Source of the DNA: Ulva prolifera
Taxonomy: Eukaryota; Chlorophyta; Ulvophyceae; Ulvales; Ulvaceae
DNA: 64,000 bases
Direction: 5' to 3'
Assembly: GCA_023078555.1 (NCBI GenBank)
Contig: CM041204.1
Location: forward strand, 1,026,923 to 1,090,922
The translations under genes and the position numbers were made by a program. Positions 1 to 49,367 of the stretch are shown here, one piece after another. How positions within the stretch are numbered: the stretch's first letter is position 1; every line of letters starts with the position of its first letter. The notes beneath the pieces are model-generated. The model was not told where the DNA came from and did not search any database. It saw nothing but the letters and a program-made list of their open reading frames with translations.

Positions 1-809
1 NNNNNNNNNNNNNNNNNNNNNNNNNNNNNNNNNNNNNNNNNNNNNNNNNNNNNNNNNNNNNNNNNNNNNNNNNNNNNNNNNNNNNNNNNNNNNNNNNNNN
101 NNNNNNNNNNNNNNNNNNNNNNNNNNNNNNNNNNNNNNNNNNNNNNNNNNNNNNNNNNNNNNNNNNNNNNNNNNNNNNNNNNNNNNNNNNNNNNNNNNNN
201 NNNNNNNNNNNNNNNNNNNNNNNNNNNNNNNNNNNNNNNNNNNNNNNNNNNNNNNNNNNNNNNNNNNNNNNNNNNNNNNNNNNNNNNNNNNNNNNNNNNN
301 NNNNNNNNNNNNNNNNNNNNNNNNNNNNNNNNNNNNNNNNNNNNNNNNNNNNNNNNNNNNNNNNNNNNNNNNNNNNNNNNNNNNNNNNNNNNNNNNNNNN
401 NNNNNNNNNNNNNNNNNNNNNNNNNNNNNNNNNNNNNNNNNNNNNNNNNNNNNNNNNNNNNNNNNNNNNNNNNNNNNNNNNNNNNNNNNNNNNNNNNNNN
501 NNNNNNNNNNNNNNNNNNNNNNNNNNNNNNNNNNNNNNNNNNNNNNNNNNNNNNNNNNNNNNNNNNNNNNNNNNNNNNNNNNNNNNNNNNNNNNNNNNNN
601 NNNNNNNNNNNNNNNNNNNNNNNNNNNNNNNNNNNNNNNNNNNNNNNNNNNNNNNNNNNNNNNNNNNNNNNNNNNNNNNNNNNNNNNNNNNNNNNNNNNN
701 NNNNNNNNNNNNNNNNNNNNNNNNNNNNNNNNNNNNNNNNNNNNNNNNNNNNNNNNNNNNNNNNNNNNNNNNNNNNNNNNNNNNNNNNNNNNNNNNNNNN
801 NNNNNNNNN
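1..809. other. Assembly gap (N run)
   Basis: 809 undetermined bases. The helicase exon of copy A runs into this gap, so the C-terminus of that gene and the left end of its element cannot be seen. Confidence 0.99.
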
Positions 810-1342
810 ACGGCTGTTCCGTGGTCTCCGCTGTTGGGATCATCCACAATGCGACCGATGCCACCCGGAGCGACGATCTGCTGCAAGTGGTCTCCGCTGG
901 CAACGAGCTTCATGCCAGCCAGCGGCTGCTCGAGGTCGTCGTACGGTTCAGGCCTCAGCAGCCGGCTCGCTGCCCAGTTCACCGACTGCTTTGCTGCTTT
1001 GTACGCCCCCAGGTGGTGTTCAGTCGATCGATTCGGCATGGCCGTGACCTCCTCAGCGAACAGCATGTTCAGGTCCGCAATCCTCTTGGCCGCCGAGATG
1101 TCGCTGTACGGCGGGTGTTCGTGTGGCGCGTACGAACCGTAGCTCATGCATCGTGCGTACGTCTCGCAGCCGATAGTGGCGGCCAACCTGCCGCTGTGCA
1201 CACAGCGCGCCACCGCTGCCACTCCGAGCAAGATCTTGGCGAGCCTGAACATCTCTTTGCCGGTGAAGGTCTTGCCGCAGCCGCCGGAGCCCAGCATCAG
1301 AATGGCGTTGAACGGGCCGTGCATCAGCGCGTGGAGCAGATC
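810..1342 (-). CDS. PIF1/RecD-like superfamily 1 DNA helicase domain (exon of copy A, partial)
   Basis: The minus-strand exon starts after the acceptor CATGCAG at 1343 and is in phase 0 with the preceding exon. About 177 residues are visible before the gap. They show a Walker A loop (ILMLGSGGCGKTFTGKEMF), a motif Ia-like block (SGRLAATIGCETYARCM), a Walker B-like block (LFAEEVTAM, where PIF1 usually has DEISM; the first acidic residue is replaced by Ala), and a motif III-like block (KLVASGDHLQQIVAP, compare GDxxQLPPV). The order and spacing match PIF1 family helicases, which unwind DNA 5' to 3' and are known from Helitrons, large DNA viruses and the nucleus. The later motifs lie in the gap. 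The AEE for DEx change may weaken ATP hydrolysis or be a tolerated variant. Confidence 0.78.
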
Positions 1343-4300
1343 CTGCATGGCATGCCCACAGTGACAGCCAGGCGATGGCAGATCAGGGCGCGGGTGACAG
1401 CCTGAAACAAGGTGTACCGATATGTACGTGCACGGGGTTGACGTTGCTACAGGCAGTAACTCCAAGGCGCCATATCACACACAGTGGACAAGGCACACAC
1501 AGGAGCAAGTGTGAGTCTGACGGAGTGGGTGCACACCGCCGGGCGGACCGTCATGATCGCGGCATACAGGTCTGGTGGGAGGCCGGCACGATCGTACACG
1601 TACGTGTCGATGTCGACGTGGTGCTGGGACGCCGCCAGGTTGCTGAGAGGCTCGCCCGGGACATCAGGCTCCGCAGGCACGGCTGCTGGCTGCACAGCAG
1701 CGGCGAGCGCAGCACCCATCAGTCCGGCGGCGAGGTCCATCGCGCCCTCAACGGCGAGTTGTCCACCGAGTGGTGGCACAGGCTGGGCGTTGGGGACAGC
1801 CGCAGGGTGCGCGACATGGGGAGCCTGAGCAGGAGCAGGCACTGGTGCCAGCGCAGCGGCGGGCGGCGCAGCGGCGTTGGCGGGCCCCTCCGCACCCATG
1901 ACCGCGGCAGCGAGATTCATTGCGCCCCCGGCAAGAAGTCCGCCCGGCAGCGGCGCGGGCTGGGAGCCGGGCAGAGCAAGCACGGGCTGACCCTGTCGAG
2001 CAACGGGAACAGCGGCGGGTGCAGCGACACCACCCCCACCGGCGGGATCATGGGCGAGCAGCGGTGCGGGCGGGACATGCACAGCAGCGGCGACATCAGA
2101 CGCCGGAGGCACGTCCGGAGGGGCTTCGGGGGGGGTCAGGACGACTTCCGGATCAGCGTCGGAGTCATCACTGGATGATATCAGTATCGACGGCCCGTCG
2201 TAGCGACGTCCAGGCACGCCACGAACTGCATCCCCGGCCCTCTCCTGCTTGATCACCACAAGTAGGGCCTGTGCAGTGCCGGGGGGCTGCGCGTCCTCAG
2301 GGGGCACTTGGCCTGCGCCTCCGGGGGGCTGTGCTGCATCAGGGGGGGCCCGCAACACTGCGCAGAGGGGGTACCCAGCCGCAGGGGGAGCCTGGGAAGC
2401 CGTCTCCAAGGCTGCCGCATGGGAGCCCTGCGCTCCTGCGCCAAGACGCGCTGTTTCGGGATGGGCCTCGACTGCCGATGGGGAGGCGTGGCCTGTCGCG
2501 CCGAGAGGACACGCTGCCGCAGCGGGGGCGCGGCTGGCCGTCGCGGGGACGGCCGAGTCGAGTGGACGCGCTGCTGGGGGAACCGGGCATGCTGGCCGAG
2601 GGGCCGGGACCGCCCCGCCGTCCCCACTCGCGAGTGCGAACCGCGTCGATGCTCCCGCGCCGTCACCGCTCGGTCCAGCGACGGAGCATTCGCCATAGGC
2701 GGCAGCACCGGCGCGCTCGTCCGGGAACAGGCGCGACGGCGTGATGCCGACGCCCGGGGCAACGCCGCCCGCGACGTGCGCTCGTAGACGCTTGGCCGTC
2801 GTCACGTCGGAGTCTGTGACAGCAGCCATGAGAAAGCCGGCGGCGCGGTCGCCGGCGTGGTTCAGGAGGACAGCGTCAGGCAGCTTCCGTTTGATCTTCT
2901 TGCAGGCCTCCTTTGCGCCGGCGACGTAGAGGGCGTGATCTGGCGGGCCGCCGCCACATGCTGTCATGATCGCGATGGCAGCGCCGCGAATACATGTCCA
3001 CAGGGGTTTGGGCAGATCTCCGCTGACGGTCGCTGCCATCAGGGCACACGTCATGCGTGCAGTGCAGTAGCCGACTGCTTCTGATAGATGAACACCAGCA
3101 TGCTCTTGATGGGCGATGCTTGGAGCGAACAGGTGTGTCGGGATCAGCAGCGTTGGCTGCGTCTGTTCTTGCACCAGCCCCGGCGCCAGGCTGTCGCCGC
3201 ACTGCCGGAGGAGTGCGAGTGTCAGCACATGCACGGGGCCCATTGGGGAGGAGGTGAACAACGCCGGCAGCCGAGCGAGAAGCAGCGCGATGGAGTCCCG
3301 TGCCACCTGCACGGCGGCTGCGTGCATTGGAGTGTCACTGCCGCTGGCCAGCCTGCGACTCGTGTTTCCGCTCTTCATGACCACGGTGCCGAACACCGTG
3401 TCACGATCTTTTCCGATGCGGACGCCACCGAACCAGGCCCACTCCGCGAGGTCTTCAGAGCCCCCCTTCTTGCTGGCACGCATGCCGTGCATGCGTGCAC
3501 ACACAACCTGCACCAGGTCGCACTCACAGCCCGCTGCGAAAACACTGATCAACACAATTGAGTGCCCAGGTAAGGCGACAGGCCTGATTAACTTTTCTGC
3601 GCGATCGTCCACACAACTGCAGCGGGTCATAGTCAAGAGTTTTGGGGCGTGCCTGTTGGAATTTCTTCGAGGGCCACTCGAGGACCCTCAACGCGATGGT
3701 ACCCGTCCTGGCCAGGGCCTGGATCGAGTCTGGGGATGCAAATTTGCAGCGCCCATGACCCCGCCCGAACGGCTGCAACTCTTCAGCCGCGTCGACCATG
3801 GCGTTGCGCGTCGTATACTCATCCTGGAGCCACTCCCGCCCGTGTGCTTGGAGTGCACAGGCGACCGCCAACAGCACTCCATCGGCGATCGGGACCACGT
3901 CGGGCTGCTGCCCGCCCTCTGCATGCAGATGGTTCGTGCGCGCTCGGGGTCGGTGTGATATACCGCAGGGGTGCATGTAGTCTTTGCGCAAAGACGGTTC
4001 GCATGGAGCCACCAGACACGGCGCCACCCGCCAGACATGTACAGTGCAGTGCTGCCGGACGGCTGGTCAGCGGGCGCACCGTCCATCGGAGCAGCGCCAT
4101 CGTCATCCTGAAGCACACGCTGTGCCTTGCCCTTGCGCTTCCCGGCCGCAGCCTGTGCCTTCCGCTTGCTGTTCTGACTGTTGAGCTGCCGGAAGCGCCG
4201 CTCCACGTCAGTGCCTGTACCGGTGCCGATCACGGTGATGTGCCTGCGGCTGCGCAGCTCGGCATACGCTTCCGCATGCTCGGCCGGCACTCCGTGCATG

Positions 4301-7300
4301 AGCGACAGCCGCGGAAGGACGGCGCGCGCCGGCTTTGTCATCATGCGGCCTGCACGTGCTGTGACATCTGAGTGCCGCAGAGCATTGCAGCTTCGGATAC
4401 GCCAGCTGCCCTCCCAAGCATCGCTCATAGGGCGCACAGGGTCCGCGAAGTGGCCACAAGCACGCTGATCAGCAAGCTTGCAATTGCAGTGGATCCCTCG
4501 CGCAGTCTCAGGCAAGCAGTTATGGGAGCAGCACCAACGGACACACATGCACAGGCACATGCACCGAAACACATGCACCGGCACGGCTGCGGCCACACAC
4601 CTTTCCCATACAGCAGCCCGGTCACGAGCGCGTGGTTCACATCAATCATCGAGAGGCCCCCGGCGCCCCTGCCGCGCGCCGCGCATGTGAGGCACACTGA
4701 CTGACCGACGAAGCCCGCCGGGCACGTGTACTGATCGCAGATGGCACACGTCCTGGAAGCCGGAGCAGGCGGCAGCGGCGTGCCGGTCGCCGTGATCTCC
4801 CGAGGTGCCTGCCCGTCATCGTACAGCTTTCTGACCGCCTCCTCGACAAAGTTGTCCTCCTCGTCGATCGCGGACAGGTCGCGACCGAGCACGCGCGCGG
4901 CCCATTTGGTGACCCCATCTCCAAGGTGGCCCTTCAGTTGCGCACACGCGTCCTGGCCGTGCACGAGCATCGACTGCTGCCCCCATTCGGGGTTCCAGGC
5001 ATCCTCCTCGCCCGCGTCATCGGGACCTGCATCAGCGGCATCTGCAGCGACGGCTGCAGCCACGCGCGCCGCTTCCACCGCCTCGTCGCTCGTCGCCGGC
5101 AGGCGGCGGCCTTGGCACGTCCGGAAGAACCCGCTGAAACAGGCGAGTGGCTCCCACTGACCGTGGGTGGAGCACCAGCGAATCTTGCGCCCCGTCTTGA
5201 GGTCGATGCAACAATATGCCTGCATTCGCAATGCCACCTGTCGCCGTGGTGAATCGCCACACGGGTTGGGGTCTCAGATGGCACACTGACGGGGGGCCCG
5301 GTGTCGACGCAGATGTTCCCGGACTCGACAGCACACATAGCAATGAGCACCACGGAGAGGTCGCTGGCATCCATGTGGCCAGGGGGGCACACCGGCATGT
5401 GCGTCAGACACAATGGAAGCACTCGCCGCGCAGCCTCGGGACCTGCGCCCTTCCGTGCAGCCTCTGCCGTGCAGGTCTCGGCCTTGCAGACGCCAGCCTC
5501 CCGGTCCATGACCAGCCTCAGCGCGTTCTCGGGCGTCGCCCACTGTGCGCCTGCGGGGGCATCAGGACGCTCTGTGCGCGGCGCCCGCTGGCGCCGATAT
5601 GCCGCGTTCCTGTCGATGCAGCGACTGCATGACGCGCGCCCGGGCCGGAACAATTGCAGCGGCAAGCCCAGCCCGCACGAGCTGCACGGTCGGATGTACA
5701 TGAGCCTGCCGGTGTGCTTGCCCGTGTTGTCCACGACGGCCACGAGTACAAACTGCAGCCCCCGCACATCCTGCAGGCCAGTGACGGCGCTCACGCCGGC
5801 TCCAGCTCTGGAATGCCAAACTCCAACCCGCGGGATCAACATGAGGTCCACACCAATCACACACAAGTCACAAGGCAGCAGCGGCGCGCGGCAGACAGGC
5901 TGGACACGCACATCAAAGCACTTCTTGCACAGCATGGCCCCGTCGCGGTCCTTGAGCTTGCCGTCCCCCTGGCAGCCGATGCGCACGCAGCGGTGGAGAT
6001 GGCCCTCCCGGTCCTTGTCGTAGAACGGGTAGGCGACGTACGGAGAGTTCAGGGACTCGCCGGGCCGGACCTGGAGGTTGGCATCGGAGCGCTGCTTGGC
6101 CGCGCGCCGGTCGAGAATGAACGACTGGTCGGCATCCTTTCCAGACTCCACCTCCTGTGGAGAGACGGGCAGGTGGACGGGGACCGGCTGCGCTCGGCCA
6201 GGGTTCTTCCGGTTGTGGTCCACCACAGAACACCTCTTGCACACCCCTCCGTCACCGTCGACTCCCGCGCCGTGCCGGAACTCCCGCACGTCGCGGAGCG
6301 CGTGACACTTGGTGCAGCGGCGCACGTCCTCCTCTGTACCCCGAATGCGAACGTCGCCCCTGATGTGCCAAGGGCACAGCCGGAGCGCATGGTCCGTGCC
6401 CAGCTCCACCCGGTCGGGACAGCCGATCACGAGGCACATGTGCGACTGGTTCAGCTCTTCCCGCACGGAGGGCTCGAGATTGCAGGCTCGCGCAGGAATG
6501 ATGGGCAGCGTGCCATGCAGTATCTTTTCAAGGTCCTCAAGGAGGGTGTCCCCGCTGTCGTGCGCAAGGTGCAGAAGGTCCAGCTCGAACTCGGCATGCG
6601 CCTTGGGCACCCGGCTGTAGCTCGGATACGGCACTGCGGACTTGCCGGTCTCGGGGCGTATCGTGAGGCTGTGCTGATGGAATGTGCGCGACTGTATCAC
6701 GGCCAGGGCGGCTTGGTGGCTGACGTTCATCTTGACCACCTTGCCTCCGGCGGACACGGTGCGGCCGACACCCCCCCTCGGCTCGTCCGGGTCCACCGGG
6801 ACCTCCGGAGCCGAGTCCGCCAAAGCTGGCGGACCGTCGTCACGTGCCGCGTCGCGTCCGAGGGCATCTGCCGGAGCGCCTTCCGGGCCTGCCTCCGCCA
6901 GCTCCATCGCCAACTCGAGCTCCATGGCGTCAGCAGGAACAGCCGGGATCTCGGCGGCGGCCTCGACGACATCGCGGAGCTCGCTGTCTGCATGCGCGAC
7001 TGCCTCGGCTTCCTCCTCAGCCGCGCTGCCGTCCATGTCGATGACATCCTCAGGTGCCTCCTCCTCGTCGTCCTCATCGTCAACCTCGTCGGCGTCGAAC
7101 GGGCCGCGTTGGTAGTCCTCCACGATGTCGTCCAGCGTTGCGCGTTGTGGCGCAGCCTTCTCCTGCAGCGCCCTCAGGCGCCGCCTGTCGATGAACATGA
7201 CCTTCTCGGCGCCCTCAAGCCAGGCGTCCTTGGCGGCGACCGCCTCCACCACGACACCGGTGAAGTCAGTCATCACAGCGGGGTGCTCTGCACACAGTGT

Positions 7301-10300
7301 CGACTCACAACATCGCACAGTGCAAGCCAAATCGGCACTCAACGTGCCCATCAAACACCATGCTGGTGTTCGGGCGGTGCGTCGGCTGCAGCCCCAGCCA
7401 AACCGTGGCATCGCATGCCCCCTTACAGCAACGCTGCAGTTCGGCCAACAGGGCCATCTCAGTCCTGCCCGTCGTCGGCACTCACACACCCACCAACAGC
7501 GCCGACGCAGCAGTGATGCTGATGCCACTGCAGCCGCGCACGCCATCGTCACTCACCTGCCCACCCACAGCGGGCATCCCAGTGACATCGCTTCGCCCCT
7601 GAAACCCAATCCGCCGTCAACACCCACATGTACATGCCCACCGCATACAGTGCCCCAGCGACACACGCATGGACACCGCCAAGCAGACTCAAGCGGGCAT
7701 GCTCACCGGGCACCAATGTCAGTGTGCGTGAGGGGCAGAGGACACACCTTCCGGGAGGGCAGCCAGTCGCTCCTCAGACAGCGGCTTCTTCTGGAGCCAT
7801 CTGCCCGGGGCACGGGCCACTCGCCTGGATAGCCGCAAGAACACCGTCGCGATCTGCGTGCCGGAGCCGTCGTCATGGCCGCCGACGTGGTCCGCAAGGC
7901 GCTTGCTTGCCGCGGTCACTCGCGCCTGGTGCACCTGCCCCTGCTGGCTGGCCTAGAACTCCAGGAAGCATGCGAGCTCTCGCTCTGCCTCATTGCCAGT
8001 GACCGGCGCCGGGCCGGAGTTGACCGCGCCGGCGGCGACTCGCTGGATCATGCGAGCCGTCTCCATGTCTTGCAGGTTACCCGTCACGCCGGCGTGCTGC
8101 TGCAGAGGCAAACGCGCACAATCAGACGCCATACGCGGGCAGGCAGTGGAACCGCAACACAGATAGGCTAGCGACGTACCATGCCTCCGAGCGTGGTCGC
8201 GGCCGCCCGGTTGGAGAAGTAGTGCACCATGGCGGCAGAGTTGCTGTTCTGCACCCAGGCGCCCGCGTGCCGCATGACGGTCTCGTCCGGGGCGCGATCC
8301 GAGGTAATCTGCATCAGCACCTGCCGCAAGACCATCGAGGAACGCAGCGCCCGGACGCCGACCTTGACGCCGCGGCCAGGCGGACCGACGTCCGCGAGAA
8401 CGCCCGCCATCGCGACCAGCCACGAGATCCGCGTCCCCGGCACGTTGATGTAGGGCAGCATCAGCAGGTCATCCTGGGCACAGATGACGTACCTGCAACA
8501 CGTCATAGCTGAGCTGCGAGTGGACACGGCAGCTCGGCTGAGCCCACTCCTCTGCTCCACAGCTTGAGTTCGTTCACATTGTGATTGCTCTGTCAGTTAC
8601 ATGGAGTCAATTTTTAAAGTCTTCCAGATCGACATCATGCACAAAACAGCGTTCGGCATCCCGTGCGCTCTGAACTGCATGTTTGCAGCATGTGGACATG
8701 CTATCAGAAGGATTCATGGTGTCAGAGAATGACCCATGTCTGTTCATCAGAGGTGAAGGCAAGAACAAATCAGATGTGCTGGTGCATGTGGATGATTCTG
8801 CGATCTTGGCGGGAGAAGGTGGAGTGATGAAGAATCTGGAGATGCTGGGCAAGAAATTTGAGGTGAAGGATCTGGGACCGCTGCATTTCTTTCTGGGGCA
8901 GGAAGTTGAACAACTGGCTGGAGATGGCCTGCTATTGCAGCAGCCTCAGTATGCCAAGAATGCGCTACAGAGGGCCAACATGTGGGATTGCACGTCCACC
9001 GCAGAGGCTGAGTATATGTCGGCTGCGATGGCAGTGAAAGAAGCACTGTGGCTGAGGAAGTTGCTGGGTGATACCTATGGTCGTGTTGAGCAGATGACTG
9101 TATATTGTGACAATCAGAGTGCTTCGCATCTGCTGAAGCGGAGGACTGCTTGCGCCCCAGGAAGGAGCAAGCACATCGACATCCAGTATCACTTCATTAG
9201 GAACAGATGTGCGCGACAGGAGATTGATGTCCAGTTTGTGCCGACAACTGAGCAGGAGGCTGATATGCTGGCCGAGGCTTTGGCTGGTCCAGCGCTGGGA
9301 AAGGCAGTGGATGGATTCGTGGTTGAATCTCCGAGCGATATGTGCTGGTGCATGTGGATGATTCTGCGATCCTGGCGGGAGAAGGTGGAGTGATGAAGAA
9401 TCTGTAGATGCTGGGCAAGCATTTTGAGGTGAAGGATCCGGGACCGCTGCATTTCTTTCTGAGGCAGGAATTTGAACAACTGGCTGGAGAAGGCCTGCTA
9501 TTGAAGCAGCCTCAGTATGCCAAGAATGCGCTACAGAGGGCCAACATGTGGGATTGCACGTCCACCGCAGAGGCTGAGTATATGTCAGCTGCCATGGCAG
9601 TGAAAGAAGCACTGTGGCTGAGGAAGTTGCTGGGTGATACCTATGGTCGTTTTGAGCAGATGACTGTATATTGTGACAATCAGAGTGCTTTGCATCTGCT
9701 GAAGCGGAGGACTGCTGGCGCCCCAGGAAGGAGCAAGCACATCGACATCCAGTATCACTTCATTAGGAACAGATGTGCGCGACAGGAGATTTATGTCCAG
9801 TTTGTGCCGACAGATGAGCAGGAGGCTGATATGCTGGCCGAGGCTTTGGCTGGTCCAGCGCTGGGAAAGGCAGTGGATGGATTCCTGGTTGAATCTCCGA
9901 GCGACAGCGCACGAGGGGGTGTGTGGGGAGCAGAGCTCCCCTGGTGCAAGCGTGTCTTAGCTGTGATGCACGAGTGCAGCAGATCACATGCGGGCAGCCC
10001 GTAGGTCAGCTGCCCAGAGCACAGAATGCAGGCCGTAGCTGTCGATTCCAGGTCATCTTTGACTGGCAATTGGCAGGTGAGAAAGCTCTGCTGTTTCTGT
10101 GTGTCTGTCTACCGACTACAGCAGAGATCAGAGTGCTGAACGTGCTACGTGGAGCAGGAGTCTGTACTGTATGACTAGTGATCCTAGCAGCTAACAGAGC
10201 TCAGACTGCCACAGGTGGGACACACGGCATAGTTATGCTGCAGGATGTTTGACTGGCAGTTGACAGGAGCTGCGGCGCACCACTCCTCCGTCCCGGGCTT

Positions 10301-11738
10301 GCACGGCAGCATCTCCCCGAAGGCGAGGGCGTCGAGGGACGCCCAGTCGAAGACGCCCATCGCCAGGCCAAGCTCGACCACGGCATTTCCGACGAGCGGC
10401 AGGCCCCGCCTCGCCGGCAGGCCCGTGGGGTCGAGCGCGAGGACGTTGACGCCGTACGCGTTTGGCGCCTTGGTGACCACGTGGCGCGTGACGAGAGCGT
10501 AGCCGATCTGCGGAGGCAACGGCGCGGGTGAGCGCAGGGGACGCAGGCACGGCGGGCGGAGGCACAGCGGGCGGATCCGGCGCATGCGGCCCGGACGGCG
10601 GGTTGCAGGCGGGTCTGAAGCAGCAGCTGCGCACCGTCGTGTCCTTCCGGGCCATGTTCTCCTCAGAGGCCTGCACCGCCTCGCCGTCCAGCAGCAGGAC
10701 CTTCTGCAGGAACACGTCCTGCCAGCGCCAGAACTGGAAGAACGTGCTGCGGACGCCCACGATGGCGGTCAGCGCGAACACGGCGCGCGCCTGGAGCATC
10801 CCGAACCCGCCGACGTACATGCCCTCCACCGTCCGCCGGATCTGGCCCTCCGTCAGGGGCGTGATCTTGCGCGTCCCGCCGAGCCCCGACGACTTGATGT
10901 ACATCGCGACGCCCTTCACGACGCTCTTGTAGCGCTGGAAGGGGCTCGCAGCCTCCACCACCTGTACAGGCAGCGGGGTCAGGGCGGTCGCATGCGCCGT
11001 GAGACTGCAGGCCCCCGCCCACGGCGGCTGACAGGCCAGCGGCGCGGCAGGGCGGCCCCTCTGAGCACAACTGCGGGCTTCTCCGCGACGCCGCGGACGA
11101 CAGGCCGCACCACCGTCGCCCACAGGCGCAGGCCCTCAGCAACGCGGCCGCCCGTGAGCGGCGCGGCGACGCCGGACAGGGCACGCACCTCGTTCGTCGC
11201 CGCGTAGTACTCGCCCATGAGGTTCCCCACCGCGTACTTGATGCCGTCCAGCGAGCCCTTGCTGCCGATGACCTTGCTGTACAGCAGCACGTGGAGGACC
11301 TCGACGAACCGGTCCTTCGTCATGGTCCTCCACGACTTGACGGCCTCGAACATGTCGACGACGAGGCTCTTCTGCCCGTCGTCGGACGTCTCCTCCCGCA
11401 GCAAGGCGTCGGTGTCCTCGCCGCGGAGGGACATGACTGCGTAGTGGGCGCGGGTGAAACGCAGCGCGCCGCGCTCGCCGTCCTCGAGGCCGGGCAGCGT
11501 GCGGTGGAAGCGCGACAGCAGGAGGCGCCACTCCGCGGGGTCCGGGAGGACGCAGTCGGGCTTCTCGGTGGCGTTCAGCGCCGCGCACACCGCGCGCGAC
11601 GGCTCGCCCATCCGGCTGACCTCCTCCGCCGCGCGGTTCAGGCACGCGCGGGCTTTCTCCATGCGCTCCCTCGTCAGGCCGGCGCCCTCCAGCGCCCTGA
11701 AGGCCTCCTCGCCCGCCGGGTTCAACTCGTACCTCCGC
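810..11738 (-). CDS. Copy A: giant tyrosine-recombinase / zinc-module / PIF1-helicase protein gene (both ends incomplete)
   Basis: The exons I can place on the minus strand are 11738-11189, 10961-10635, 10507-10281, 8492-8180, 8099-7748, 7287-5912, 5770-5393, 5219-4601, about 4480-4040, 3918-3653, 3507-1537 and 1342 to the gap. Splice phase agrees at every junction I could test (for example GAG-TG joined to G-TAC across 10281/8492). Together they give a continuous frame of about 2,450 residues or more: helical N-terminus, tyrosine recombinase core, acidic region, Cys-rich modules, basic linker, Pro/Ala-rich tract, PIF1-type helicase. I saw no frameshift in the placed exons, which makes A the best candidate for an autonomous copy. 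The first exon begins at an acceptor (CTCGCAG before 11738), so an upstream start exon is missing from this model. The 8492-10281 intron carries an antisense copia fragment. The host role is probably self-mobilisation, which is inference. Confidence 0.65.
1537..3507 (-). CDS. Copy A: conserved C-terminal region followed by Pro/Ala-rich tract (single 657-codon exon)
   Basis: The exon lies between the acceptor GTGCAG at 3508 and the donor GCG/GTGTGC at 1537; 1971 nt, phase 0 at both ends. The first 250 or so residues are conserved with copy E, with shared blocks such as GPVHVLTLALL, VGYCTARMTCAL and RGAAIAIMTA. The rest is Pro/Ala-rich low complexity. It contains an internal duplication (LLAGGAMNLAAAVMGAEG and QLAVEGAMDLAAGLMGA) and one patch, PSILISSSDDSDADPE, that looks like a SUMO-interacting motif. 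I recognise no catalytic domain. It may be a linker or scaffold between the zinc modules and the helicase. Confidence 0.6.
3653..4480 (-). CDS. Copy A: basic linker exon and short conserved exon
   Basis: Two exons. One (about 4480-4040; exact ends unsure) encodes a Lys/Arg-rich segment (NSQNSKRKAQAAAGKRKGKAQ) that looks like a nuclear-localisation or DNA-binding linker, then an acidic patch. The second (3918-3653) encodes the block VVPIADGVLLAVACALQAHG, conserved in copies D and E. It enters in phase 1 from an ATGCAG acceptor and leaves in phase 0. In copies A and D the exon ends at CAG/GCACGC, which would be a GC donor, while copy E has CAG/GTTCGC at the same place. Confidence 0.5.
4601..5219 (-). 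CDS. Copy A: zinc-ribbon-like exon
   Basis: 619 nt, phase 0 to phase 1. It begins AYCCIDLKTGRKIRWCSTH and ends with a paired-cysteine module (TCAICDQYTC ... SVCLTCAA) before the donor GGGAAAG/GTGTGTGG. The middle holds an Ala/Asp-rich stretch and a conserved helical block (LGDGVTKWAARVLGRDLSAI). Copies D and E have the same exon (50853-51471 and 23417-24239). The cysteine spacing suggests structural zinc binding. No enzyme signature is visible. Confidence 0.6.
5393..5770 (-). CDS. Copy A: CxxC ... CxxC zinc-module exon
   Basis: 378 nt, phase 0 at both ends (acceptor CTGCAG, donor CCG/GTGTGC). It encodes a hydrophobic strand (LQFVLVAVVDNTGKHTG), then CSSCGLGLPLQLFRPGRASC with SRC following, then KAETC and LCLTHMP. 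This repeats the pattern already present at the end of the preceding exon (a C-x4-C / CxxH knuckle and a CxxC-x(n)-F-x(n)-CxxC treble-clef-like knuckle), so the protein appears to contain tandemly duplicated zinc modules. Confidence 0.6.
5912..7287 (-). CDS. Copy A: acidic region plus first zinc modules
   Basis: A 1376-nt exon entering in phase 2 and leaving in phase 0; copy D has an exon of exactly the same length (52173-53548). The first third is a highly acidic Asp/Glu stretch (VDDEDDEEEAPEDVIDMDG). The middle is conserved with copy E (VSHQAALAVIQSRTFHQHSL and PSYSRVPKAHAEFELDLLHL). The end has the Cys clusters CLVIGC ... LCPWH, RCTKCHALRDVREF ... VCKRC and RCVRIGC ... LCKKC. These look like treble-clef or zinc-ribbon folds, possibly for DNA or protein contacts. 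Confidence 0.62.
7748..8099 (-). CDS. Copy A: exon just after the recombinase core
   Basis: 352 nt, phase 0 to phase 1. It encodes a helical region with VAGNE/ARD-type acidic helix starts, the block RLADHVGGHDDGSGTQIATV and RAPGRWLQKKPLSEERLAAL. It is conserved in copies B, D and E. In E this exon is fused to the next one, whereas A, B and D have an intron here of 460 bases (in A) with a GTGTGT donor. The function is not recognised; it may be a C-terminal arm of the recombinase. Confidence 0.6.
8180..8492 (-). CDS. Copy A: tyrosine recombinase C-terminal catalytic exon
   Basis: The exon encodes YVICAQDDLLMLPYINVPG, then a box II-like block (GVRALRSSMVLRQVL), then APDETVMRHAGAW and AAMVHYFSNR. 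In phage-integrase-type tyrosine recombinases the catalytic set is R...HxxR...(H/W)...Y. Here I see RxxR in place of HxxR, W at the third position and the presumed nucleophile Y in VHYF. The first catalytic Arg lies in the upstream exon (10635-10961). It joins the exon ending at 10281 in phase 2, giving EWYVICAQ. Confidence 0.62.
8598..9903 (+). pseudogene. Ty1/copia retrotransposon fragment (RT C-terminus and RNase H), internally duplicated
   Basis: Plus strand, antisense to the host gene and inside its recombinase intron. Visible Pol pieces are FKVFQIDIMHKTAF (RT start, different frame), GFMVSENDPCLFIR, the VHVDD catalytic box, FEVKDLGPLHFFLGQEV, then directly RNase H (TAEAEYMSAAMAVKEALWL, VYCDNQSA, RSKHIDIQYHFIR). 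The thumb/connection region between RT and RNase H is missing. A 568-bp unit (about 8773-9340) is repeated in tandem from 9341, and the second unit has an early stop (TAG at about 9406). There is no gag, protease, integrase or LTR, so this is a dead remnant. Confidence 0.85.
10281..10961 (-). CDS. Copy A: tyrosine recombinase core, N-terminal catalytic part (two exons)
   Basis: Exons 10961-10635 and 10507-10281. The first encodes YIKSSGLGGTRKITPLTEGQ and then FALTAIVGVRSTFFQFWRWQ followed by DV. The AIVGVR...WRWQDV block corresponds to the box I arginine region of tyrosine recombinases (TGLRxxEl..L.W.Di). The second carries the QIGYALVTRHVVTKAPNAYG hairpin, where the family normally places its catalytic lysine, and GLPLVGNAVVELGLAMGVFD. 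Copy E has the same exons, with one extra intron between GMMQ and ARVVF. Confidence 0.6.
11189..11738 (-). CDS. Copy A: N-terminal helical exon
   Basis: A 550-nt exon beginning at the acceptor CTCGCAG with RRYELNPAGEEAFRALEGAG and ending NLMGEYYAATNE before the donor GAG/GTGCGT. It is all-helical in character (EWRLLLSRFHRTLPGLEDGE, DMFEAVKSWRTMTKDRFVEV) and fits the SAM-like, core-binding N-terminal region that precedes the catalytic domain in tyrosine recombinases. Copies B and C are near-identical. Copy E has an extra 162-nt intron within it. Confidence 0.6.
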
Positions 11739-13945
11739 CTGCGAGCGGCGACAGGTCGGGCCACATGCGCTGCTGCTTCGACCAGACGCCCCGTGTACGG
11801 GGACCCGGCCGCGTGTACGGACGGCGCATGCATGCAGTGCGGGACTGCTCCGGGGACAGCACCACCCTCCACCACACAGCGACGCGCGACAAGTGTTGCA
11901 ATGCCACCGGTGCACCTCAGCCAAACTCGGGGTGTTGGAATCACGCATGCAGCATGCGCCACGCGACACCACTCACCACACTGCTCCGCCATGCACTTCA
12001 CAACAGCGTTGTTGACAATTGGATCGCGGATTCGCGAAGCACGCGAAAAAAACTGCCGGTGAATGCCTTTGTTGAGTGAGACTGAGTGCATAGCAACTTT
12101 CCGCACAAGAAACTGTGAAGCACACAGATGTTCGGGGGTGATACCACACGCAGAATGCCATCTGGAGGTGGATGTGCAGAGTGAGAGGCTCTGCTTGCAG
12201 CAGGGCATCACTGTCACATGATGTAAGTATAAACCTCTGGTCAGGCGGGCTTGGGAGATGCAGCATGCTGGAAATTTGGCCTTGAGGGAGCCAACTCTGG
12301 CGACACACCCTCAGTGGGAATGCAATTCGGGGTGTTGCTTTTGCGTTCTAGGAGAGGTGCACAGCCCAGGCTTGAAGATGATGCTTCTTGGGGCGTTTTG
12401 GAGCCGCACAGCATGACGAATAGCAGCCATCAACAGCAATATTTACACGTGGCACTCCTCTAGGTGTCACACAAGCCAATGACCTGTTGCATTTCGGGGC
12501 TGGCGTGGCGGACTGCCCCATGGCCAGTCTGATCAGACACCTCAAACCCGGCTCTGAACAGCCCGAATGTGCTTGCAAACTGGAGCCCGCCACGCGGACC
12601 GGGCGAGCACGGCGAGTGTGGCCCTGGCGTGGGGCGATGCGGGGTGGGCAGGTGCAGGCGGGGCTGCCGCGCGATATGCGTGCGGATATGCCACATGGGC
12701 CCTCGGGGGCTACGGGGACGCGTGTTCTGACGGCGCATGCATGCAGCGCGGGACTGCTCCTAGGACAGCAGCACCCTTCACCACACTGCGGTGCGCGAAA
12801 GGTGCTGAAACACCGCCTGTTGAGAACGTGACCGTGCACCTGCCACGCGAACGACCCAGGCGTGCACGGCGAGCGTGGCCCTATCGCCGGGCGAAGCGGG
12901 GTCGGCAGGTGCCGGCGCGGCTGCCGCGCGATATGCATGCGGATACGCCACGCGCGACCGCGACCTCGCCCCGTCCGCGCGCCCTATATCCCGGATCGCC
13001 GCAGCGACCGCCGCCCTGGCGGCGACATGGGCACTCCGAGGCCTCACAGGAGGCCGTCGTGCGCTCGACCTCGCCGGCGCGGCCGCCACGGCCACGCAGC
13101 GGCGCCAGCGGGCAGCGGTCGGTGCATCGACAGCGCGCGGCGCGCGTGCGCGTCGCGCATGCACGCGCCGCGGCGACCCTGCTGACGCCGCGGCCTTACG
13201 CACGCATCCACGGGCTGCAGCACCTCGCGCACCTCTCCGCGGCCTTCCTCCGCTGCTCTGCGGCTGAATCCTGCTCCATCTCTTCTTCCTAGATGATATC
13301 CTGCCCGTGCCGGCCGGCTGCCGGCCGTGGCGGGCTGTCCCGCGCCTCGCTGCCTCGGAGACCGCCCACGTCCCGCACTGCGCCCCGCGACGCCTGCTTC
13401 GCGCCCTACGCCCGCCTACAGAGTCGAATACCGATGATTCTCTTCTGATAGACCGATCCTCGCCGCGCCGTGCGCCGCTCGCCCGCCACGCCACCCGCTG
13501 CACGTCGCTGCGCTGCCTCGGCGCTCGCACCGCCGCTCCTGCCTCCGACCGCTCGGAACGAAGCCTCTGAAACACTATCAAACGCTGTATCACCTATTCT
13601 CGCGAAAAATACCCGCCGCCGCGCCGTCTCTACGCCGCTGTCGCTCGCCCGGGTCCGTAACAACGCCGACCTCTCGGATGCACGCTCGCCCGTGCTAACA
13701 ACGCACGCGAATGCCATCCGCAGGCTCCCCAGCCGTCCCTAACGGGCCTCGCCCGTCGCGAAACGTCGGTTTCCCGTCGGTCTCGCGGAACGCGCGCCCC
13801 CCCTGCGCCACGCCCAGATGGTCCGGGTTTCGCGCGCTTCCTGCACCGCCCCCGGGCCGCTGCCGCCGCCGCCGCCGCCAAAATCGCCGCGCTTTCGACG
13901 CCCGCACCGCGTCGGGGCTGCGAAAAGTGCTAAAATACTACCTGG
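11739..13945. repeat. R1 block upstream of copy A (non-coding, internally repetitive)
   Basis: GC-rich sequence shared with 47112-49345 (copy C) and, in part, 20526-21627 (copy B). It contains three related motifs, GCGACAAGTGTTGCAATGCC near 11887, GCGAAAGGTGCTGAAACACC near 12799 and GCGAAAAGTGCTAAAATACT at 13921. The first two are flanked by diverged copies of a roughly 100-bp segment containing GCATGCATGC. A longer diverged repeat is visible between about 12590-12690 and 12840-12950. Long frames here are Arg/Ala-rich and look like composition artefacts. It may be the 5' flank or promoter of the element and may hold a missing first exon. Confidence 0.65.
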
Positions 13946-15161
13946 GACCTGGTCGCACACGTGCGAGGCTGGCGTCGAACGCCCCGACCGCTACGACGCC
14001 TGACGCAGCCGTGCCACACGACAGAACGACACCTATTACCAATTACCCACCGAGAACACGACAGCGGCGGTGTTACGAAGAACGCTGCTACCGGTGCGCT
14101 GCAACGGCGCCGGTAGAGTTGGCCGACGACCTGAATGTGTTATCTGGTTTCCCGCTGCAACCCGGGATATACGCAATACAGCACCGTCGCCCGTGCTGCG
14201 TTGATAGATGTATCCCGACACGTCCGCGGTCGTTGCTCGCGCGATGGCGTACATCTCCGAACCTTGCGGTAGCTGCGCCTGTCGCCACCTGCTGCAATGC
14301 CGCGATCGCCTCTGCGCTGCGTCCCCGTCCGCCCACGTCGCATACACCACATCCTGTCGCGTAAAGGTAATTAGCACTTGGAAGGTTATCTTTTCCGTCC
14401 TCGAGCTGACCTCGCAGGCTCCTTCCACGCCGCTTGTGCGACCAGGCATGCGCTCGTGCATACACACGGCACGCTCCGCGACGCCTGCACGCACGAACGC
14501 CAGCGCTGCGACGCCACATGTGCTCGATCGTGTCTTTTTCAACGACCTCTGCATCTTCCTGTTGCTCGCAGGCTCTTTTCCTGCCACTGCGACCAGGCCT
14601 GCACTGGTGCCTTCACACGACACGCACCGCGACGCCTGCACGCACGACCGCCAGCTCTGCGACGCCATATGCGCTCGATCGTGTCTCTTCCAACGACCTC
14701 TGCATCTTCCTGTTGCCCTCACGGCGCCGGCTGCGCCTCGGCGCTCACCGCACGGCGTACAGCTCGCCACGACCTCGTCCACCTCCTGCATCCCTCCACG
14801 CCGCCTTCCACGCCGCTCAGCACCGGCCAGCGCAAACATCCGTGTCTCTCCGACCCTCTGTGCCGAGCGTTCGCCCGCTCGCCTCGCACCGCGCGCCTGG
14901 GACCTCCGCCACCCACGTCCCGCCCGCTGTCCCCTCGCCGCGCGCCCCACGCTGCCTTCGGCACCCCTAACACGCGCAGCCCTGTCCAAAAAGGGCCTCC
15001 GCGTGCCAGTTTGCCTGTCTCGTGCATCCAGGCGCCGTCCCCGAGCCTCCCTCGCCTCGCTGGGGCCGGGCTTCGACCCGCCTCGTCGGTACACGTTCCA
15101 CGACCTCCTCCGTACCGCGTTTTCGACGCAAAAACTAACCTCCTAAGTGCTTATTAAAATG
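13946..15161. repeat. R2 block between copies A and B
   Basis: GC-rich, shared with 31847-36502 (there interrupted by a CACTA element) and with a shorter piece at 49368-49715. The 5' end differs between copies while the 3' end, TAACCTCCTAAGTGCTTATT, is constant. It contains about two copies of a roughly 153-bp tandem repeat starting near 14412 and 14565. I find no convincing protein. The right end abuts the truncated copy B at about 15161. Confidence 0.65.
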
Positions 15162-16492
15162 ACACGGAGCCGAGTCCGCCAAAGCTGACGGTCCGTCGTC
15201 ACGTGCTGCGTCGCGTCGGAGGGCATCTGCCGGAGCGCCTTCCGGGCCTGCCTCCGCCAGCTCCATCGCCAATTCGAGCTCCATGGCGTCAGCAGGAACA
15301 GCCGCGATCTCGGCGGCGGCCTCGACGACATCGCGGAGCTTTTGTCTGCATGCGCGACTGCCTCGGCTTCCTCCTCAGCCGCGCTGCCGTCCATGTCGAT
15401 GACATCCTCAGGTGCCTCCTCCTCGTCGTCCTCATCGTCAACCTCGTCGGCGTCTAACGGGCCGCGTGGGTAGTCCTCCACGATGTCGTCCAGCGTTGCG
15501 CGTTGTGGCGCAGCCTTCTCCTGCAGCGCCCTCAGGCGCCGCCTGTCGATGAACATGACCTTCTCGGCGCCCTCAAGCCAGGCGTCCTTGGCGACGACCG
15601 CCTCCACCACGACACCGGTGAAGTCAGTCATCACAGCGCGGTGCTCTGCACACAGTGTCGACTCACAACATCGCACAGTGCAAGCCGAATCGGCAGAGAA
15701 CGTGCCCATCAAACACCATTCTAGTGTTCGGGCGGTGCGTCGGCTGCAGCCCCAGCCAAACCGTGGCATCGCATGCCCCCTTACAGCAACGCTGCAGTTC
15801 GGGCAACAGGGCCATCTCAGTCCTGCCCGTCGTCGGCACTCACACACCCACCAACAGCGCCGACGCAGCCGTGATGCTGATGCCACTGCAGCCCCGCACG
15901 CCATCGTCACTCACCTGCCCACCCACAGTGGACTTCCCAGTGACATCGCTTCGCCCCTGAAACCCAATCCGCCGTCGACACCCACATGTACATGCCCACC
16001 GCATACAGTGCCCCAGCGACACACGCATAGACCGCCAAGCAGACACAAGCGGGCATGCTCGCCGGGCACCAGTGTGAGTGTGCGTGAGGGGCGGAGGACA
16101 CACCTTCCGGGAGGGCAGCCAGTCGCTCCTCAGACAGCGGCTTCTTCTGAAGCCATCTGCCCGGGGCACGGGCCACTCGCCTGGAGAGCCGCAGGAACAC
16201 CGTCGCGATCTGCGTGCCGGAGCCGTCGTCATGGCCGCCGACGTGGTCCGCAAGGCGCTTGCTGGCCGCGGTCACTCGCGCCTGGTGCACCTGCCCCTGC
16301 TGGCTGGCCTGGAACTCCAGGAAGCATGCGAGCTCTCGCTCTGTCTCGTTGCCAGCGACCGGCGCCGGGCCGGAGTTGACCGCGCCGGCGGCGACTCGCT
16401 GGATCATGCGAGCCGTCTCCATGTCTTGCAGGTTACCTGTCACGCCGGCTGCAGAGGCAAGCGCGCACAATCAGACGCCATACGCGGGCAGG

Positions 16493-17519
16493 TGTCGTGA
16501 GGTGGCACCTCACTCTGGCGCAGGCTGGGCATCATAACTAGTTGCGTTTGATGTGCACAACTTTTCAAAATTATTGATCATGAAATTCACAATGTACAAC
16601 TCATGTACAACCTCATGTTCGTGTCTGAAAATTTTGAAAGATTGTGCACACGAAATGCGAGCATACAAAGCATCGTGCGCTGACGCTCGATGTGGCTACG
16701 AGTGCACAATGTTGACCAGCTCAATCATTATCACAATTGCGCTAACGACTGAACGATTCGATCTCAAATTGGAAGTGCGCTTAAACATGCACAAGAACAC
16801 AACATAGAGCGCTTTAATTAGGTGCGTATATCACTACTTGCTTGCTGGGCGACTATGCTGCGCTCTGTGAACTTCTCAGGTTCACATGCTCACATGTCAG
16901 ACTCAGCAATGCATGCGCTAGTGTGCACAGGCTACGGGCAGATCACAGCCCAAGCCCTTGCGTCCCGCACCGTGGCGGCTCGAGCCAAGGTGGAACACAG
17001 AATGTACTCAACAAGTGTCGGACTCATCTTTTCCGGCATGCCCGTTATACTCCGACCCCAGGATATCGGGACTCATAGGTCACGGATCCTCACTGTCCGG
17101 CATGCATGGCACGACTGAGCACAGACTCCGCGCGCTCAGCGTTTAAAGTCGTATACATACACTTATACACCACAAATTACTGATATTCCCGCAGATGATC
17201 GGGATATCATTGAGGTGCTCGCATTTTGTGCGACATCTTGGCGAGGCCAGCCTTAGCAGGGGGTAGTCCTGGGCGCGTTCACAACAGTATTTATACTGTG
17301 CGCTTGCTGGGTCCGACACAGTAGTTACTGGTCGGATGGGGCGCAACCATTTATGCACTCTGTTCTGATTTGAACTATCACGCATTCTTAACCTTGACTC
17401 TCTTGTCATAAACTTCTAGTGCTCATATCGGTCCCCGCGCCGGGGCCATACCCCTCCAACTTCCCAGCATCAAGCACATCGAGGTCCGCTCAGTGACCAC
17501 GGACAACTAGTCCTAGACA
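16493..17519. mobile_element. Solo LTR, 1027 bp
   Basis: An insertion in a copy B intron, identified by comparison with the empty site in copy A (near 8140). It begins TGTCGTGAGG and ends CCTAGACA (TG...CA, TGTC/GACA termini) and is flanked by the 5-bp duplication GCAGG (16488-16492 and 17520-17524). Copy A has a single GCAGG at this site. The interior is much more AT-rich than the surroundings and encodes no protein, as expected for an LTR left by recombination between two LTRs. The parent retrotransposon family is not identified. Confidence 0.75.
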
Positions 17520-17978
17520 GCAGGCAGTGGAACCGGAGCACAGATGGGCTGGCGACGTACCATGCCTCCGAGCGTGGTCGCGGCCGCCCGGTTGGAGAAG
17601 TAGTGCACCATCGCGGCAGAGTTGCTGTTCTGCACCCAGGCGCCCGCGTGCCGCATGACGGTCTCGTCCGGGGCGCGATCCGAGGTGATCTGCATCAGCA
17701 CCTGCCGCAAGACCATCGAGGAACGCAGCGCCCGGACGCCGACCTTGACGCCGCGGCCAGGCGGACCGACGTCCGCGAGAACGCCCGCCATCGCGACCAG
17801 CCACGAGATCCGCGTCCCCGGCACGTTGATGTAGGGCAGCATCAGCAGGTCGTCCTGGGCACAGATGACGTACCTGCAAACGTCATAGGTGAGCTGCGAG
17901 TGGACACGGCAGCTCGGCTGAGACCACTCCTCTGCTCCACAGCTTGCGTTCGTTCAAATTGTGATTGCTCTGTCAGTT

Positions 17979-18663
17979 ACATGGAGTCAAAATTTAAAGT
18001 GTTCCAGATCGACATCATGCACAAAACAGCGTTCGGCATCCCGTGCGCTCTGCACTGCATGTTTGCAGCATGTGGACATGTTGTCAGAAGGATTCATGGT
18101 GTCAGAGAATGACCCATGTCTGTTCATCAGAGGTGAAGGCAAGAACAACTCAGATGTGCTGGTGCATGTGGATGATTCTGCGATCCTGGCGGGAGAAGGT
18201 GGAGTGATGAAGAATCTGGAGATGCTGGGCAAGCATTTTGAGGTGAAGGATCTGGGACCGCTGCATTTCTTTCTGTGGCAGGAAGTTGAACAACTGGCTG
18301 GAGAAGGCCTGCTATTGAAGCAGCCTCAGTATGCCAAGAATGTCAGCTGCCATGGCAGTGAAAGAAGCACTGTGGCTGAGGAAGTTGCTGGGTGATACCT
18401 ATGGTCGTTTTGAGCAGATGACTGTTTATTGTGAAAATCAGAGTGCTTTGCATCGGCTGAAGCTGACTACTGCTGGCGCCCCAGGAAGGAGCAAGCACAT
18501 CGACATCCAGTATCACTTCATTAGGAACAGATGTATGCGACAGGAGATTTATGTCCAGTTTGTGCCGACAGCTGAGCGGGAGGCTGATATGCTGGCCGAG
18601 GCTTTGGCTGGTCCAGCGCTGGGAAAGGCAGTGGATGAATTCCTGGTTGAATCTCCGAGCGAC
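17979..18663 (+). pseudogene. Ty1/copia RT-RNase H fragment in copy B intron
   Basis: The same fragment and position as in copy A, but without the tandem duplication and with a further deletion. QPQYAKN joins directly to the RNase H part with a frame change near 18340, removing the segment that in copy A reads ALQRANMWDCTSTAEAEYM. Copy C has the identical deletion, so B and C share a more recent ancestor with each other than with A. Confidence 0.85.
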
Positions 18664-20525: not shown

Positions 20526-21627
20526 CTGCGAGCGGCGACAGGTCGGGCCACATGCGCTGCTGCTTCGACCAGACGCCCCGTGTACGGGGACGCCGTCACG
20601 TGCGTGGGCCCTCGGGGGCCACGCGCCCGCGTGTACTGACGGCGCATGCATGCAGTGCGGGACTGCTCCGGGGACAGCAGCACCCTCCACCACACAGCGA
20701 CGCGCGACAAGTGCTACAATGCCACCGGTGCACCTCAGCCAAAGTCGGGGTGTTGGAATCTCGCATGCAGCATGCGCCACGCGACACCACTCACCACACT
20801 GCTCCGCCATGCACTTCACAACATCGTTGTTGACACCTGGATCGCGGATTCGCAAAGCACGCGTGAAAAGCTGCTGGTGAATGCCTTTGTTGAGTGAGAC
20901 TGAGTGCATAGCAACTTTCCGCACAAGGAACGGTGAAGCACACAGATGTTCGGGGGTGATACCACACGCAGAATGCCATTTGGAGGTGGTTGTGCAAAGT
21001 GAAAGGCTCTGCTTGCAGCAGGACATCACTGTCACATGAGGTAAGTATGAACCTCTTGTCGGGCGGGCTTGGGAGATGCAGCATGCTGGACAGTTGACCT
21101 TGAGGAAGCCAACTCTGGCAACACACCCTTAGTGGGAATGCACTTCGGGGTGTTGCTTTTGCGTTCTAGGAGAGGTGCACAGCCCAGGCTTGAAGATGAT
21201 GCATTCTGGGGCGTTTTGGATCCACACAGCATGACGAATAGCAGCCATCAACAGCAATATTTACACGTGGCACTCCTCTAGGTGTCACACAAGCCAATGA
21301 CCTGTCGCATTTCGGAGCTGGCGTGGCGGACTGCCCCATGGCCAGTCTGATCAGACACCTCAAACCTGGCTCTGAACAGCCCGAATGTGTTTGCAAACTG
21401 GAGCGTGCCACGCGATCCGGGCGTGCACGGCGAGTGTGGCCCTGGCGTGGGGCGATGCGGGGTGGGCAGGTGCTGGCGGTGCTGCCGCGCGATATGCGTG
21501 CGGATATGCCACATGGGCCCTCGGGGGCTACGCGGACGCGTGTACTGACGGCGCATGCATGCAGCGCGGGACTGCTCCTAGGACAGCAGCACCCTTCACC
21601 ACACTGCGGCGCGCGAAAAGTGCTGAA
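20526..21627. repeat. R1 block upstream of copy B (shortened)
   Basis: Matches the first half of R1 of copies A and C, then stops at GCGAAAAGTGCTGAA (end 21627) and joins directly to the C-terminal coding region of copy E. The intact R1 copies continue past this motif at 12805 and 48210. I see no coding sequence. Confidence 0.7.
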
Positions 21628-29484: not shown

Positions 29485-29726
29485 CTACACAAGAGTCCGT
29501 CTCTGGCACATGCGCCGAACGGCTAGATCACACCGACGCACGGGGCCGATTCAGTACGCGAGCGGACCGGTCCGGGGCGGGAGGCTGCAGCTGGTGCGAG
29601 GGCAGAGTGCGGGGAACTGGGGCTAGGGAATACACACCCAGCAGCAAGATACGGTAACAAAAAACCCGCGTGCGGCCAGACCAGACCCTTACCAGGCATT
29701 CTTAGTCGCCACGCAAAAGAATCGTC
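29485..29726. other. Region upstream of the first placed exon of copy E
   Basis: GC-rich leader-like sequence ahead of the acceptor at 29485. It should hold the donor of an earlier exon or the transcription start, but I cannot place either. Confidence 0.3.
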
Positions 29727-37490: not shown

Positions 37491-37491
37491 A

Positions 37492-45089: not shown

Positions 45090-45090
45090 T

Positions 45091-49345: not shown

Positions 49346-49367
49346 CTGTCGAGATCGAGATCGATGT

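Follow-up and report, generated by a model that had tools for sequence, protein, structure and literature searches.

A putative transposon family of Ulva prolifera whose single gene probably joins a tyrosine-recombinase-like core, zinc-type modules and a PIF1-like helicase

The window analyzed here, a stretch of 64,000 nucleotides from the nuclear genome of the alga Ulva prolifera (C9:1026923-1090922; C-numbers denote the contigs of one genome of 88.9 Mb in 44 contigs), holds five related copies or fragments of a large mobile element, A to E, nested in one another. The genome has at least 38 matches to the chlorophyll a/b-binding domain, the best of them strongly similar to chlorophyll a-b binding proteins of the PDB, in keeping with a host of the green lineage. 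The gene of this element probably specifies one giant protein, in which an N-terminal domain, a diverged tyrosine-recombinase-like core, zinc-type modules, a long linker, a PIF1-like helicase of superfamily 1 (SF1) and a C-terminal region follow one another, and its carriers would form a transposon family. Copy A, the subject of a first-pass annotation, is fairly likely to be one damaged member of this family of DNA transposons, having an in-frame TAG at 7955 and a helicase exon cut by a run of N.

A probable single gene in several copies

The copy at C1:2754001-2772000 (hereafter C1) can be modeled as 16 exons separated by GT-AG introns, which together give 2,793 codons whose sole stop is the last codon; the start codon is provisional. 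Along this chain the recombinase-like exons come first, followed by the Cys-rich modules, the PIF1-like helicase and the C-terminal region. The first-pass annotation had proposed for copy A a single polypeptide of about 2,450 residues or more. The C1 copy, open over its whole length, and the conserved order of parts bear out the single chain, while copy A, with its TAG and cut helicase exon, does not; the length must be revised to the 2,793 codons of the C1 model. The exons of copy A were correctly placed on the minus strand, and limits set by homology agree closely with 10961, 8180, 7287, 4601 and 1342. Splice phase, invoked in the same annotation, proved a poorer guide: GT-AG pairs of agreeing phase exist at 11 of 11 junctions, yet each junction offers 7 to 88 options, and since every junction allows many pairs, the agreement was dropped as strong evidence.

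Other copies repeat the arrangement. The C10 copy is colinear with C1 (97.6% over 8.2 kb, with similarity limited to exons in the recombinase part) and stops within E16, at concatenated position 14050. The C8 copy, mostly about 30% identical to C1 in amino acid sequence, keeps the same order on one strand, including two regions past the helicase exon. Window copy D has the order of C1, C10 and C8 as far as E13. When 27 matches to recombinase exons were set against 17 matches to the PIF1 exon, the latter merged into 14 loci, a recombinase copy was found 5.9-13.4 kb upstream on the same strand at 11 of them and none within 15 kb at the other three; pairs on opposite strands numbered zero. Because the C1 chain is open over 2,793 codons and colinearity is conserved, a predicted single gene joining recombinase-like core, zinc modules and helicase is well supported.

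Coding divergence tells a similar story for part of the family. Nonsynonymous (dN) and synonymous (dS) divergence amount to 0.024 and 0.107 between C1 and C10 (2,577 codons) and to 0.262 and 1.211 between C1 and D (1,735 codons), values that indicate purifying selection in both comparisons. The corresponding figures are 0.524 and 1.216 for C1 against A (2,046 codons), and 0.765 and 1.286 for C1 against C8 (2,176 codons), the last being near saturation. Between C1 and C10, dS is unevenly distributed: it ranges from 0.29 to 1.10 in E1-E7 and from 0.01 to 0.06 in E8-E16, with a sharp shift at intron 7, where tandem repeats of about 57 bp lie at the breakpoint (concatenated positions 5696-6087 in C1, L044, and 5697-6208 in C10, L047). 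Elements have apparently exchanged the recombinase module, leaving C1 and C10 as mosaics.

The recombinase-like core, the Cys-rich modules and the helicase

The core is probably a highly diverged tyrosine-recombinase-like domain, this being the best reading because of its conserved catalytic pattern, a profile match at box I, and insertion in one orientation at the 3′ ends of tRNA genes. The first-pass annotation had called a tyrosine recombinase here and named failed profile searches as grounds for withdrawing the call; four profile libraries gave no match, and it is the three features just listed that keep a weakened form of the call in place. In a seven-row alignment of the core (A1), R71 (within AGLRT), K122, R236, R239, W268 and Y280 are invariant in 7/7 rows, with the caveat that one row has an X, a stop, inside the RxxR box and that the catalytic positions were picked after the alignment had been viewed. 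R236xxR239 has Arg in place of the His of the HxxR box. When A1 is aligned as a profile with 73 XerD-type integrases, LTQGQI...AGLRTTFFQYWRWEDVEL is placed over their box I, its Arg aligned with theirs. The whole alignment scores 27.1 in hhalign (HH probability 9.6%); none of 60 column shuffles exceeded 22.7, and the reversed alignment reached 15.2. The match of E3-E4 was reached by none of 100 shuffles (HH probability 25.5%), and among 12 segments of the protein compared with the XerD-type profile E3-E4 comes top, at 25.6 with the next at 21.2.

Downstream of the core, the E8-E10 part of C1 (834 amino acids) contains 27 Cys and seven CxxC pairs; 2,000 shuffles had 0.86 such pairs on average and never more than 5. 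Its closest Pfam match is SBP, below the cutoff (9.2e-4 in A; 0.0049 in C1).

The PIF1-type helicase named in the first-pass annotation is supported by both Pfam and PDB profiles. Pfam PIF1 matches spliced C1 at 1.8e-5 and 24.9 bits, just under the cutoff of 25.9 (one of three rows matched), and a profile made from three helicase rows retrieves PIF1 helicase chains first in the PDB, at 1.6e-4. Motifs I, II and III of the first RecA domain (RecA1) are present in the helicase exon. A six-frame genome search with Pfam PIF1 gave six matches over the cutoff (one of them together with its neighbors), three of which belong to the recombinase-helicase family (C2:10841939, C1:2766117 and C10:1202261). 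Elsewhere, at C1:9216609-9224612 (L001, L002), PIF1 matches more strongly at two places separated by 7.5 kb; no recombinase copy is listed in their vicinity, and they are perhaps ordinary PIF1 genes.

Insertion at tRNA genes and into sibling elements

ARAGORN, run over 45 loci, found three tRNA genes, none of them in the window: a tRNA-Ile(AAT) directly before each of the C1 and C10 copies, and a tRNA-Ala(TGC) immediately ahead of a D-type end at C6:5632847. The C1 and C10 insertions look separate, because the sequences preceding their two tRNA-Ile genes differ. The tRNA is best read as a target rather than cargo, since insertions free of tRNA exist with the identical terminus. A pattern combining B box and end motif matched five forward places, none in reverse, and one in the control; three of the five are the tRNA genes just named. 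The A-type end pattern has three matches, at the tRNA of C1:12148155, at the end of copy A and at C7:3559766. Neither terminus pattern matched at the tRNA genes C2:629449, C7:1853222 and C6:1172109, which may therefore be unoccupied. Two further candidates were set aside as tRNA sites: C4:1140384, where ARAGORN was negative, and C6:5745860, a chance B box. At C4:1140411 (L157) a 5′ end resembling the C1 type lies away from any tRNA gene, on a contig with no recombinase copy listed.

A broader count leads to six loci. An Rfam search, which scored 63 of 1,780 candidates, lists at least 60 tRNA genes, a lower bound; six of the 60 listed are followed within 10 kb, on their own strand, by a recombinase copy (C1:2754240, C10:1190230, C6:5632775, C6:5625795, C1:12148155 and C2:10551198). 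Random placement of 60 tRNAs, which treats their positions as uniform, gave a mean of 0.085 and a maximum of 3 in 20,000 trials. At C1, C10, C6:5632846 and C1:12148155 no more than about 5 bp separate the tRNA 3′ end from a recognizable element end; the end at C6:5625866, equally close, is diverged and was called by resemblance, and the gap at C2:10551198 is about 30 bp. An element end at the tRNA 3′ end in a fixed orientation is found at these six loci.

The elements also insert into one another. The D-type 5′ end, TTGTCGTGTCATTTTAATAAGCACTT, was fixed from a continuous stretch of C2 in which the terminal block is followed by 61-bp repeats and then by D-type exons; this element sits, as an insertion, within exon E3 of a C1-type gene. 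The A-type ends of copies A, C and E bear TAGTATTTTAGCACTTTTCGC. At all ten joints with sibling genes the inserted element has the orientation of the host gene, and at none the opposite (window 15142, 21615, 36483 and 49697; L010, L011, L012, L013, L031 and L040, L012 being a near-duplicate of L013); the remaining ends examined had a flank without gene sequence or one identical to a flank already counted. At L031 position 2801 and L040 position 1783, A-type ends stand within C1-type and D-type genes in host orientation. On the reverse strand of L008 (C6:5648795-5652249), at about 2990-3110, an extended run of C follows two tandem element termini, an arrangement that repeated insertion at a single end might leave. 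Near C10:1207940 the C10 terminus has a 9-bp inverted copy, which was set aside as being close to chance level.

All copies of the window lie on the minus strand. In copy A, E1-E2 (11189..11740) specify the N-terminal domain upstream of the core (55% and 47% identity to the C1 model in tblastn). E3-E4 (10638..10961) hold box I, including the Arg that is the candidate for the first catalytic residue (VGVRSTFFQFWRW), and the match to the XerD-type profile, E5 (10280..10507) the candidate catalytic Lys (TKAPN; K122 of A1), and E6 (8180..8491) the RxLR box and candidate nucleophile Tyr (GVRALRSS ... GAWVQN ... MVHYF). The TAG at 7955 falls in E7 (7752..8093). An acidic linker and Cys-rich modules, with the weak SBP match, occupy E8 (5909..7287; homology starts at 7276, with an acceptor option at 7287), and further Cys-rich modules E9 (5396..5767) and E10 (4601..5237; CAICDQ...CLTC, homology limits 5198-4599). 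The linker region, E11-E13, spans 1534..4349 (4314-4153, 3886-3734 and 3507-1534; E11-E12 limits weak), and E14 (810..1342; homology limits 1342-848) encodes the RecA1 part of the helicase (GSGGCGKT, AEEVTA, GDHLQ). The end of the 3507-1534 exon was set from its open frame and the other limits by homology. Bases 1..809 belong to a 976-base N run, so that the helicase exon is cut and the 3′ end of copy A is missing. A partly duplicated Copia-type retrotransposon fragment on the plus strand (8674..9904; RVT_2 at E=4.9e-13 for 8674-9390) has internal repeats at 8774-9338 and 9340-9904 and shares parts with 17520-18662 in copy B and 36500-37490 in copy C; it need not break the gene, as it sits within the E5-E6 intron.

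The nesting can be followed along the window. The 5′ terminus of copy A (13920..13944) abuts the noncoding 5′ region of a D-type element, and a 5′-terminal block of D type (14707..15161) is joined to gene sequence of copy B. This block had been considered as the 3′ end of the gene element and was ruled out, being the 5′ end of the D-type element. Copy B (15165..21627) lacks its 3′ part, where the D-type 5′ end is joined, and has its 5′ terminus inside exon E13 of copy D. Copy D (21631..29492), which runs from E1 to E13 and lacks its 3′ part, is 66-80% identical to C1 in matched pieces of DNA; beyond it lies a D-type 5′ upstream region (29831..32621) with 61-bp repeats. At 29712-30805, within the 5′ part of the D-type element, about twelve such repeats stand in tandem; C2 has them as well. 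Copy C (36500..49348) adjoins a D-type 5′-terminal block at 36045-36498 and carries a 7.6-kb insertion at 37490-45091. Within it, two direct repeats of 3,046 bp (37490-40535 and 42046-45091), each with minus-strand open reading frames of 247, 187 and 206 amino acids, are 99.93% identical and flank about 1.5 kb, which points to a very recent insertion or duplication. The copy E fragment (49742..54335), 93% identical to copy A 3503-8068, is cut by an N run from 54336.

Competing explanations, related systems and meaning

A good number of results weigh against the picture drawn so far. No tyrosine recombinase profile in Pfam, NCBIfam or PHROGs matched any of the seven rows of A1, nor did one emerge from the PDB profile search, and PF00589 has no match in the U. 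prolifera genome, with controls positive in 14 of 14 genomes. HH-suite gives the box-I match low probabilities throughout (9.6 to 25.5%); the match of exon E6 was reached by 8 of 100 shuffles (HH probability 1.2%), and AlphaFold2 gave E6 alone, from four rows, a predicted local distance difference test (pLDDT) score of 40, too low to bear on the fold. K122 and R239 are 117 residues apart, a Lys-to-Arg spacing that is long for the tyrosine recombinase family. On the side of the gene model, E11-E12 boundaries are weak, with many phase-compatible splice options, and C8 lacks E11 and E12 in place. In the helicase, motif II reads EE for DE in 3/3 rows and no second RecA domain (motifs IV-VI) is recognized by Pfam in E15-E16; for these two reasons an active helicase is only plausible, and the domain may be partial. 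Not all ends lie at tRNA genes, which account for only three of the five forward places of the B-box pattern. Finally, neither distal end nor core repeat was found: in the 3.5-3.9 kb downstream of the C1 and C10 genes the tRNA 3′ part is not repeated above chance, and the distal end may lie beyond.

The core could instead be an unknown transposase or DNA-binding domain, with tRNA targeting of the kind known from retrotransposons that seek tRNA genes or from Dada and other DDE elements. In favor of this, all family profile searches of the core were negative, and genes for tRNA or small RNA are also targets of other enzyme classes, according to two sources (PMC8869645; PMC5006619). We consider it rather unlikely, given a box-I match that exceeds all shuffles and is the highest of 12 protein segments, the ordered conserved residues of A1, element ends that lie, at five of the six loci including the diverged one, no more than about 5 bp from the tRNA 3′ end, and the single orientation at 10/10 joints in sibling genes. 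A different objection concerns the gene rather than its core: a recombinase-zinc gene and a separate PIF1 gene may adjoin in one element, a possibility left room by poorly defined splice choices at E11-E12 and by a one-gene model built from DNA sequence alone. Two adjoining genes are decidedly improbable all the same, since the frame is open through all 16 exons of C1, the helicase exon of C1 has no in-frame ATG ahead of its Walker A motif, and the last E13 residues, compared by eye, are alike in the three diverged copies A, C1 and C8 just before E14.

Two further explanations would assign the element to a known class. The large size, variable truncations and PIF1-like helicase would suit a Helitron- or Helentron-like rolling-circle element whose HUH endonuclease had been missed. 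Helitron 5′ ends begin with TC, and most 5′ ends seen here do not, that of C10 being one that does; four scanned segments (2,816 residues) gave no Rep/HUH match, and insertion at tRNA 3′ ends is confined to one strand, which together make a Helitron very improbable. It is if anything slightly harder to credit that the gene is one part of an endogenous virus, polinton-like or giant. Such elements do carry tyrosine recombinases and SF1 helicases, as one survey records (PMC12220804), yet viral contigs gave no confirmed relative (0/11 candidate stretches), the gene is rich in introns, and in the part of the element seen, which stops short of the distal end, it has no viral family match beyond chance-level ones. 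The preferred reading remains a transposon whose single protein has a diverged tyrosine-recombinase-like core.

Cryptons, DIRS elements, Helitrons, Starships and polinton-like viruses share one part each with this family. The first-pass annotation had brought up Cryptons and Helitrons, and membership in either finds no backing: the gene has no Pfam match to the Crypton profiles DUF3504 or GCR1_C, nor to DUF3435 of Starship captains, and the HUH Rep endonuclease of Helitrons is absent from the four scanned segments. Helitrons and Helitron2 are eukaryotic elements with a PIF1-type helicase as here; the family differs in its recombinase-like core and its insertion sites. Like the Cryptons of fungi, oomycetes, a diatom and animals, its members are DNA elements of a eukaryote that have a putative tyrosine recombinase and in which no reverse transcriptase belonging to the element was seen. 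Unlike them, it has a gene split into many exons, whose 2,793 codons include zinc and PIF1 parts, and sites at tRNA 3′ ends; the words helicase and tRNA do not appear in the available main text of a Crypton survey (PMC3212892). In Cryptons, direct repeats of 4-6 bp mark both termini; the distal terminus of the present family, needed for that comparison, was searched for and not located. DIRS-1 of Dictyostelium is a recombinase element that prefers its own kind as target and forms clusters, as one account describes (PMC5006619). The present family likewise inserts into siblings in clusters, and departs from DIRS-1 in having tRNA sites and a helicase and no reverse transcriptase match in its gene. 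Polinton-like viruses bring a tyrosine recombinase and an SF1 helicase together in algal elements; within the available text of a cryptophyte survey, however, the two are not reported as one protein, and no tRNA genes lie within 1 kb of insertions (PMC12220804). A parallel in site choice comes from bacterial and archaeal elements with tRNA-targeting tyrosine integrases, which, in one account, end at the tRNA 3′ end, keep the full tRNA and use several tRNA genes (PMC8371274). Those systems are set apart by the nuclear, algal setting of the family, its spliced giant gene, a core unmatched by family profiles and the lack of an att core repeat among the sequences found. Among the matches listed in open-licence literature, no report describes a recombinase-helicase fusion in a eukaryotic element or a eukaryotic tyrosine-recombinase element at tRNA genes, and the one match that names both 'Pif1-like helicase' and 'tyrosine recombinase' concerns a phage. 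With caution, the family may be placed among tyrosine-recombinase transposons as a novel variant, though the superfamily profile test failed.

A mechanism can be proposed from these parts. The gene, its full module order seen at the sequence level in C1 and backed by C10 and C8, would yield a protein that inserts the element so that the 5′ end of its gene meets the 3′ end of a tRNA gene (of Ile or Ala type), leaving a full-length tRNA, as read from sequence at six loci. The recombinase-like core would exchange strands at a short, directional site close to the terminal motif AGCACTT, the element probably passing through a circular intermediate; the zinc modules might choose the DNA, and the helicase might open the element or help replicate it. 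Insertion into siblings in the orientation of the host gene, seen at the joints read, gives nested arrays such as those of the window, some of whose joints may have been shaped by later deletions.

Among eukaryotes, DNA transposons that use a tyrosine recombinase are rare and little understood, and tRNA-gene ends are well known as insertion sites of bacterial and archaeal elements. The broader proposal, which we hold to be about evenly balanced, is that the family represents a new superfamily of eukaryotic integrative elements, in which one protein combines tyrosine recombinase, zinc DNA-recognizer and PIF1-type helicase, insertion is directional at nuclear tRNA 3′ ends in the manner of bacterial and archaeal elements, and recombinase modules are exchanged at intron repeats. 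A recombinase-like core and a PIF1-type helicase kept in one protein over deep divergence may offer a natural test of the coupling of unwinding to recombination, and the element terminus at tRNA ends gives a concrete, assayable hypothesis for an attachment site. If true, the proposal would connect the transposons of eukaryotes with the way in which prokaryotic mobile elements integrate, and would amount to a safe-site strategy carried out through site-specific recombination in a nuclear genome.

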